A program made the translations under genes and the position numbers. Positions 2,175 through 3,111 of a DNA stretch of 64,000 bases are shown here, piece by piece. Under the pieces are notes generated by a model. That model ran no database searches, had not been told where the DNA came from, and was given only the letters and a program-made list of their open reading frames with translations. Position 1 is the stretch's first letter, and the number at the start of each line of letters is the position of its first letter. This stretch comes from Hyphomicrobiales bacterium (GTDB lineage Bacteria > Pseudomonadota > Alphaproteobacteria > Rhizobiales > Rhizobiaceae): positions 62,001-126,000 of the forward strand of contig UEIJ01000006.1 in the NCBI GenBank assembly GCA_900470195.1, in the 5' to 3' direction.

Positions 2175-2765
2175 CTAGCGCAATTCGCGCCGTATGGCCT
2201 GCGTCATCAAGGCAGCTTCATGAAACCCCGACAGGATGAGCTTCAGCTTCCCCGGATAGTGACAGGCGTCCCCGATAGCGTAGACCTTCGGACTTGAAGT
2301 TTTGAAGGTCTCGGAACTTACGGCCAGCGTATTGCCCGTTTTCACTAGTGAAAGCTCTGCAAGCGGATCAGGACGGACGACCTGTCCATTACCGGTAAAT
2401 GCTCCGAGACCGGATGCAATCACCGCAGCGCGCGCTTCAAGCTTGTCCCCATTGCGGGTAGCGACAGTGACGCCCTCTTGATGGATGGAGATGTCGTCCA
2501 CAATCCGATTGAAGCAAAAAGCCGGATCATATGGCGCGATCTGTTTCAAAAGCCGTTCGACAAGCTCCTCTCCTATGATTTCAGGAAATCCGGGTATGTC
2601 GTAAATTGGCTTGTCAGCATAGAGTGCCGTGCATTGACCACCAGGCCGGTCGCAGGCGTCTAGAAGGTGACATCTGAAACCAAACAGCCCGAGCTGAAAA
2701 ACAGAGAAGAGTGCGACAGGCCCGCAGCCGATGATGACAATATCGCTCTGCGGCTCCGCCCCCAT
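2175..2765 (-). CDS. FAD protein related to ferredoxin-NADP reductase (thioredoxin-reductase-like type), lacking the NADP domain
   Basis: The N-terminal half carries an FAD-binding motif GCGPVA (residues 13-18), the RPGGQC segment (40-45) and IYDIPGF typical of the two-domain ferredoxin/flavodoxin-NADP reductases. The C-terminus carries the second FAD signature YAIGD (162-166) and the PGKLKLILSGFHEAA segment. Family members are about 330-350 residues; this one is 196. The part missing falls cleanly between residues about 125 and 150, where the NADPH-binding Rossmann domain should be inserted. The reading frame is intact, so this is not a simple frameshift. It follows the ferredoxin gene by 22 bases, which suggests it exchanges electrons with that ferredoxin. 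It may be a specialised flavoprotein or an in-frame deletion remnant. Confidence 0.75.
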   Translation of the reverse strand: MGAEPQSDIVIIGCGPVALFSVFQLGLFGFRCHLLDACDRPGGQCTALYADKPIYDIPGFPEIIGEELVERLLKQIAPYDPAFCFNRIVDDISIHQEGVTVATRNGDKLEARAAVIASGLGAFTGNGQVVRPDPLAELSLVKTGNTLAVSSETFKTSSPKVYAIGDACHYPGKLKLILSGFHEAALMTQAIRRELR

Positions 2766-2787
2766 CACATCACCGTTCTGCGGACGC

Positions 2788-3111
2788 TCAGTTCTGACGC
2801 TCCGGTACCTGTACGACAAGGCCGTCAAGGTCGTCCGACACCCGAATCTGACACGATAGGCGCGAGGTGGGGCGAACTTCATAAGCGAAGTCCAGCATAT
2901 CCTCTTCCATTGCGTCAGGCCCGCCGACGGTATCCGTCCAGTCCTCGTCCACATAGACGTGGCAGGTTGCACAGGCACAGGCACCACCACATTCCGCATC
3001 GATGCCGGGAACACCATTGCGAATGGCAGCTTCCATCACACTGAACCCATTGTCGGCTTCGACTTCGGTCCGGGTCGCGCCGTCAGCTGATACGAATACG
3101 ATCTTCGTCAT
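2788..3111 (-). CDS. 2Fe-2S ferredoxin, adrenodoxin/ISC type
   Basis: The 107-residue protein has the vertebrate-type ferredoxin ligand pattern C41-x5-C47-x2-C50 with the fourth ligand at C87 (LSCQI), plus an extra cysteine at 45. Such ferredoxins (Fdx, FdVI/FdxE) carry single electrons to monooxygenases or to iron-sulfur and haem-A biogenesis. I choose the ATG at 3111 because AGGA lies six bases upstream; the ATG two codons earlier would sit directly on that ribosome site. It is the first gene of a two-gene unit with the truncated reductase-like flavoprotein. Its exact partner cannot be told from sequence. Confidence 0.9.
   Translation of the reverse strand: MTKIVFVSADGATRTEVEADNGFSVMEAAIRNGVPGIDAECGGACACATCHVYVDEDWTDTVGGPDAMEEDMLDFAYEVRPTSRLSCQIRVSDDLDGLVVQVPERQN

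Follow-up and report, generated by a model that had tools for sequence, protein, structure and literature searches.

Ferredoxin–NADP reductases (FNRs) of the thioredoxin-reductase type are two-domain enzymes in which a half that binds flavin adenine dinucleotide (FAD) and a half that binds nicotinamide adenine dinucleotide phosphate (NADP) work together. In a stretch of 64,000 nucleotides from a Hyphomicrobiales bacterium of the family Rhizobiaceae (assembly GCA_900470195.1, contig UEIJ01000006.1, positions 62,001 to 126,000; hereafter the window), a short gene lying behind a 2Fe-2S ferredoxin gene encodes the FAD half of such an enzyme, from which the NADP domain has been lost in frame. The source genome is not alone in this loss, as the short form is common to ten genera. 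By examining its alignments, distribution, selection, phylogeny and gene neighbourhoods, we hypothesize, with a probability of about 0.5, that the short protein is a stand-alone FAD domain and an electron acceptor of the neighbouring ferredoxin, downstream of NADPH and the plant-type reductase Fpr.

Domain organisation of the short protein

The open frame at 2175-2786 on the minus strand has no internal stop; because the conserved ATG is residue 8 of its translation, we take the coding sequence to be 2175-2765 (196 amino acids, aa), which starts 22 bases behind the ferredoxin gene on the same strand (Table 1). The best PDB sequence matches of the product are thioredoxin-reductase-type FNRs, and they fall into two blocks: in the alignment to the Rhodopseudomonas palustris FNR (5ygq), residues 13-131 correspond to 5ygq 6-125 and residues 135-197 to 5ygq 251-313 (numbered by the 2175-2786 translation), and the 125 residues from 126 to 250 are replaced, in frame, by three. 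The NADP(H) domain of the R. palustris enzyme is given as residues 127-250 in the part of the published account available to us (PMC9137726), and the loss is therefore close to domain-exact. The C-terminal tail of 5ygq is likewise missing from the window protein; in R. palustris, the same part of that account places the re-face Tyr328 within a flexible C-terminal region, residues 319-344. The original prediction, that both FAD halves are kept and that the NADP domain is gone without a frameshift, is borne out by the two blocks, and its estimate of 130-150 missing residues fits the internal loss plus the tail. It had put the junction codons at 2316-2393, which is roughly right but extends into the second FAD half: the junction proper lies at 2364-2396, beside GLGAF at 2397-2411. 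In the predicted structure, the predicted local distance difference test score (pLDDT) is 54 for residues 121-130 and 61 for residues 131-140, the two blocks spanning the junction, and superposition on 5ygq gives 42% identity over 193 residues.

The short protein retains the discontinuous FAD domain of an FNR, with the GxGxxG motif, the si-face tyrosine and the FAD-contacting aspartate, and lacks the NADP(H)-binding domain, an insertion of about 125 residues; in the window protein the C-terminal extension with a re-face aromatic is also absent. Tyr49 would be the si-face tyrosine by alignment, its role being the one described for the Bacillus subtilis enzyme in the part of the literature available to us, and the equivalent of Asp56 contacts FAD in the R. 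palustris FNR (PMC9137726, available part). Common to the two proteins are the fold and sequence of the FAD domain, Tyr49, Asp56 and YPGKLKLILSGFHEAA. They differ in the NADP(H) domain and, for the short forms of the window's own group, in the tail that bears the re-face aromatic (Tyr328 in R. palustris).

Distribution, selection and ancestry

The nearest named relative of the source genome is Brucella cytisi (L094, 84% identical), and its genus is therefore taken as Brucella in the wide sense. The short form occurs in 25 of 35 genomes of this genus, the source genome included, as 24 intact copies and a split one, which comes from an assembly that is 69% complete and has a broken folP too. With 24 of the 34 other genomes carrying it (one split), the possibilities that all relatives have a full-length gene here, or that a local assembly deletion was at work, fall away. 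In the ten remaining genomes the ferredoxin is kept, the DUF922 gene follows next behind and the short gene is gone, with no FNR match better than chance between the two. At the same place, a 341-aa FNR is encoded in Brucella endophytica (L101) and in two full-form genomes (L081, L088), and sister genera carry a full-length FNR behind the ferredoxin where the Brucella group has the short form.

Across the Rhizobiaceae, 154 of 394 genomes gave a match at E 1e-30 or better. At least 25 of these are short forms (6 from the genus itself, 19 from nine other genera), called by a single colinear match among the matches listed, so that weaker matches could be hidden. The combined total is 44 short-form genomes in 10 Rhizobiaceae genera, with 43 intact frames (195-230 aa) besides the split one. 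Neighbours of the homologues repeat the predicted pairing: the ferredoxin lies upstream of the short gene, on the same strand, in 39 of the 43 intact loci. Behind the ferredoxin, the members of genus g152 differ: G536 has a short form, G601 a full form and G440 no FNR. At the thresholds used, no short-form genome also gave a full-length FNR match, the extra matches being a further 41-residue fragment in G013 and a weak match in another flavoprotein frame in G014. An order-wide search of 397 genomes yielded only G000 and G358 as colinear among the matches listed; two candidates for short forms outside the Rhizobiaceae, L118 and L119, had seemed colinear and are 348-aa proteins. A plasmid-borne short form was also rejected, as the 35 plasmid records that matched (30 of them listed) were below 60% identity and, among the matches listed, only two covered more than 80% of the query, with annotated full-size genes of 1020 and 1014 bases. 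In those two (L322 and L323, Priestia and Peribacillus plasmids) the full-size FNR-like gene stands directly before a ferredoxin gene, the reversed order, with oxygenase genes nearby.

The short gene is under purifying selection. Median Nei–Gojobori ratios of nonsynonymous to synonymous substitution (dN/dS) in the near clade, which are approximate since dS is about 0.9, were 0.109 for the short gene (36 pairs), 0.094 for folP (36), 0.042 for the DUF922 gene (35) and 0.031 for the ferredoxin (35); two further clades gave 0.127 (10 pairs) and 0.114 (8) for the short gene, against 0.062 and 0.072 for folP. Within the near-clade short gene the ratio was 0.141 for residues 1-118 and 0.041 for residues 141-196. 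Fourteen residues are identical in all 43 intact copies: G13, G15, Q24, Q44, Y49, D51, D56, G165, D166, Y170, G172, K173, H182 and E183. Q24 and D51 are shared by all 43 intact short forms, mostly along with A167-C168, and Glu is found in 96% of 85 full forms; one full-length FNR (L271, from G578) has Gln at position 24, a state otherwise typical of short forms. Cys168 was considered as a new redox thiol and discarded as a defining feature, being present in 38 of the 43 short forms and missing from five. Outside the genus, 17 of 19 short forms have the C-terminal aromatic motif; none of the 24 intact Brucella-group copies does.

Because intact short copies occur in 43 genomes of 10 genera and are under purifying selection, the short form is not an assembly deletion and is most likely not a relic. 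A transitional remnant, whereby Fpr takes over ferredoxin reduction, the FNR is stripped of its NADP domain and the gene then vanishes, would suit the coexistence of full, short and absent states behind one ferredoxin (even within g152), the empty sites in the genus and a short gene that evolves faster than its neighbours. We nevertheless regard it as unlikely, given the low dN/dS, lowest in the second FAD half, the single split copy, found in an incomplete assembly, among so many intact frames, the near domain-exact junction, the ten empty sites that give no FNR match better than chance, and the linkage of the short gene to fpr where it is separated from the ferredoxin.

Phylogenetic trees of the FAD domain unite the short forms in one clade, with support of 98/95 (13 short and 20 full rows) and, in a larger tree, 100/98 (16 short and 25 full rows); a broader quick tree of 32 short and 87 full forms needs two changes and joins long branches. 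Approximately unbiased (AU) tests rejected placing the Brucella short forms with their full-length sisters (p 0.0015 in the smaller tree, 0.0175 in the larger), and, in the larger tree, the g168 short forms with the g189 full forms (p 0.0056) and the g152 short form with the full form of its congener (p 0.029). By contrast, an rpoB tree of 27 genomes, covering 7 of the 10 short-form genera, scatters the short forms over four clades among full forms, and forcing the FAD tree onto it was rejected (AU p 6e-6). From this discordance, either a single short lineage displaced the full gene on several occasions or separate excisions converged on the same form; the shared states Q24 and D51 (with mostly A167-C168) fit both, and long branches call for real caution here. 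At the four sites compared (residues 17, 22, 66 and 94), L070 and L071 have ferredoxins with full-form residues, and the neighbouring ferredoxin therefore need not have moved with the short gene.

Fpr and the proposed electron chain

In genus g219, the ATG of the short gene overlaps the stop codon of the gene for a protein of about 270 aa in all four genomes (L284-L287), and no ferredoxin match was found in the 10 kb around the short gene. The best family of this protein is ferredoxin–NADP(+) reductase, with a score under the NCBIfam cut-off, and among solved structures the reductase 2bgi is closest (E 8.1e-100); by these matches the gene is identified as fpr, for a plant-type NADPH–ferredoxin reductase. 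In two of the four genomes (L285, L287), cysG, DUF2849, sulfite/nitrite reductase, DUF934, fpr and the short gene form a run, and none of the first four was found in the 10-kb stretch of the other two. DUF2849 and DUF934, both uncharacterised families, may have a part in electron delivery. An fpr of 53% identity lies elsewhere in the window's genome, and the 14 kb around it holds no cysG, DUF2849, sulfite/nitrite reductase or DUF934.

Fpr is present in 43 of the 44 short-form genomes, the miss (G013) being 72% complete; G001 and G006 are probably poor assemblies, with fpr spread over several frames and a broken folP at each locus (L011, L033). The gene fpr also occurs in each of the ten genomes of the genus that have no short form, and it was not found in G476 and G518, which represent full-form genera beside Brucella in the rpoB tree. 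We cross-tabulated 101 Rhizobiaceae genomes by hand, counting any full-size match in a genome as full-length and five weak FNR matches as none: with and without Fpr, there were 28 and 10 full-form genomes, 8 and 0 short-form genomes, and 54 and 1 genomes with no FNR (Fisher test, full against the rest, p 0.0002). Eleven of the 101 genomes are without Fpr, and ten of those have a full-length thioredoxin-reductase-type FNR. Fpr and the full-length FNR look interchangeable; on the cross-tabulation and the Fisher tests, the full form can apparently substitute for Fpr, and the short form seems equivalent to having no FNR.

Having no NADP domain, the short protein should be unable to take hydride from NADPH as its relatives do, and should not be able to act alone as an NADPH reductase of the ferredoxin. 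It might do so in trans, as one polypeptide of a two-polypeptide reductase completed by a separate NADP-binding partner or by Fpr, and the stop/start overlap in the four g219 genomes would allow a direct complex with Fpr. We consider this improbable, since Fpr comes from a family of complete reductases and is present in every genome of the genus that lacks the short gene, and since a stand-alone NADP domain was looked for in the window's genome and not found, the best match covering 42 residues of a 339-aa frame in which a full PF07992 match is also present.

The short gene accompanies the ferredoxin gene in nine genera and fpr in the tenth, and both partners belong to one electron chain; the most likely role of its product is that of an acceptor of ferredoxin electrons. 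NADPH would reduce Fpr, which would pass electrons to the 2Fe-2S ferredoxin; the ferredoxin would in turn reduce the short protein's FAD in one-electron steps, and the short protein would hand the electrons to a partner docking where the NADP domain used to be. FAD binding, reduction by the ferredoxin, the direction of flow and the downstream partner are all inferred, and the run in the two g219 genomes gives only a hint of sulfite/nitrite reductase as final acceptor. A new ferredoxin-dependent oxidoreductase or relay, as originally predicted, remains the best kind of explanation, and the fpr coupling and Fpr co-occurrence support it indirectly.

There is precedent for such a step in FFTR of Gloeobacter and Clostridium, which has a thioredoxin-reductase fold and an FAD that accepts electrons from ferredoxin and not from NADPH, according to the available part of its description (PMC12796991); the fold can thus be reduced by ferredoxin. 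The same reduction is proposed here from gene linkage. FFTR retains a second domain bearing a redox CxxC, which the short protein lacks. None of the 43 short forms has a CxxC, and thioredoxin reduction is accordingly not indicated. Fpr (for example Brucella ovis 6rr3 and 6rra), a proposed member of the same chain whose gene overlaps the short gene in g219, belongs to a different family (PF00970/PF00175) and has its own NADP site. The full-length thioredoxin-reductase-type FNR gene likewise lies behind a ferredoxin in many Rhizobiales; NADPH-dependent ferredoxin reduction and a homodimer are traits of these enzymes.

Several points weigh against an acceptor role. No acceptor gene is consistently linked to the short gene, and the case is built from genes and sequences. 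The ten genomes that keep the ferredoxin without the short gene make the latter dispensable, and it evolves faster than its neighbours, exceeding folP in all three clades. Among the ferredoxins of short, full and empty genomes, no residue tracks the short form: changes at the four sites compared first seemed tied to it and were then dropped, as they also occur in some full-form and empty genomes and are missing from two short-form ferredoxins. Loss of the tail with the re-face aromatic in the Brucella group could expose the flavin to oxygen. Finally, the Fisher tests ignore shared ancestry, and short against full gave p 0.17 in the set of 101, 0.002 with all 44 short forms and 0.09 with each short-form genus counted once. 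The dispensability and the want of a linked acceptor would also accommodate a protein without catalytic activity that senses the redox state of the ferredoxin pool or regulates it; this seems the least probable of the alternatives, as the protein has no output domain and much of its conservation lies in FAD-site motifs.

Flanking genes and wider significance

The ferredoxin carries a Fer2 domain and resembles solved members of the FdVI/putidaredoxin type, 3hui being closest (E 7.4e-48), followed by ferredoxin VI, 1e9m (E 1.1e-36); most relatives start it at the second ATG. The coiled-coil-like gene, ferredoxin, short gene, DUF922 gene and folP stand together in all 24 loci compared with the window's own. 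The coiled-coil-like protein (1620 aa), divergent from the ferredoxin, occupies the same locus in several genera. The DUF922 gene is not thought to be part of the short protein's function. Elsewhere in the source genome (L283, C27:60000-63000), positions 1139-1705 of the minus strand encode a 188-aa front part of an FMO-like flavoprotein, which looks truncated, is unrelated to the short protein and lies beside an IstB-like gene (both names given by eye).

Table 1. Positions of the short gene, its protein segments and the flanking genes in the window
Feature	Position	Strand	Details or basis
Short FAD protein (thioredoxin-reductase-type FNR without NADP domain)	2175..2765, including stop codon	-	196 aa
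First FAD half, residues 6-118: GxGxxG motif, GGQC, Tyr49, Asp56	2412..2750	-	alignment
GLGAF and junction, residues 119-134	2364..2411	-	about 125 residues of NADP domain missing here; alignment
Second FAD half, residues 135-196: GD motif, YPGKLKLILSGFHEAA	2178..2363	-	alignment; dN/dS
2Fe-2S ferredoxin, FdVI/putidaredoxin type, first gene of the pair	2788..3111	-	PF00111, PDB matches
DUF922 gene, downstream flank, convergent, conserved	1543..2163	+	synteny
folP (pterin-binding enzyme), conserved flank, synteny marker	520..1401	-	synteny
Long coiled-coil-like protein (named from appearance only), conserved flank, synteny marker	3736..8598	+	synteny

The literature searched, mostly titles and the openings of abstracts, yielded no description of an FNR that lacks the NADP domain. 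In the available part of the Brucella ovis flavoproteome (PMC9045290), two EC 1.18 flavoenzymes are given, Fpr and a ferredoxin/rubredoxin/putidaredoxin NAD+ reductase, and a thioredoxin-reductase-type FNR is not among the flavoenzymes there. We tentatively suggest that the short forms may be an undescribed class of ferredoxin-dependent flavoprotein: a thioredoxin-reductase-type FNR cut to its FAD domain, a reductase turned ferredoxin oxidant, that would have taken the place of the full enzyme behind one ferredoxin in a number of Rhizobiaceae lineages, either through repeated transfer or through convergent excision with Q24 and D51, and would work behind Fpr.

A conserved and selected family that consists of the FAD half only suggests that this half is useful alone, and it points to a ferredoxin-driven reaction in Brucella-group and Rhizobium-group bacteria for which no name was found. 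The full, short and empty versions of one locus in close relatives form a natural experiment for finding the acceptor.
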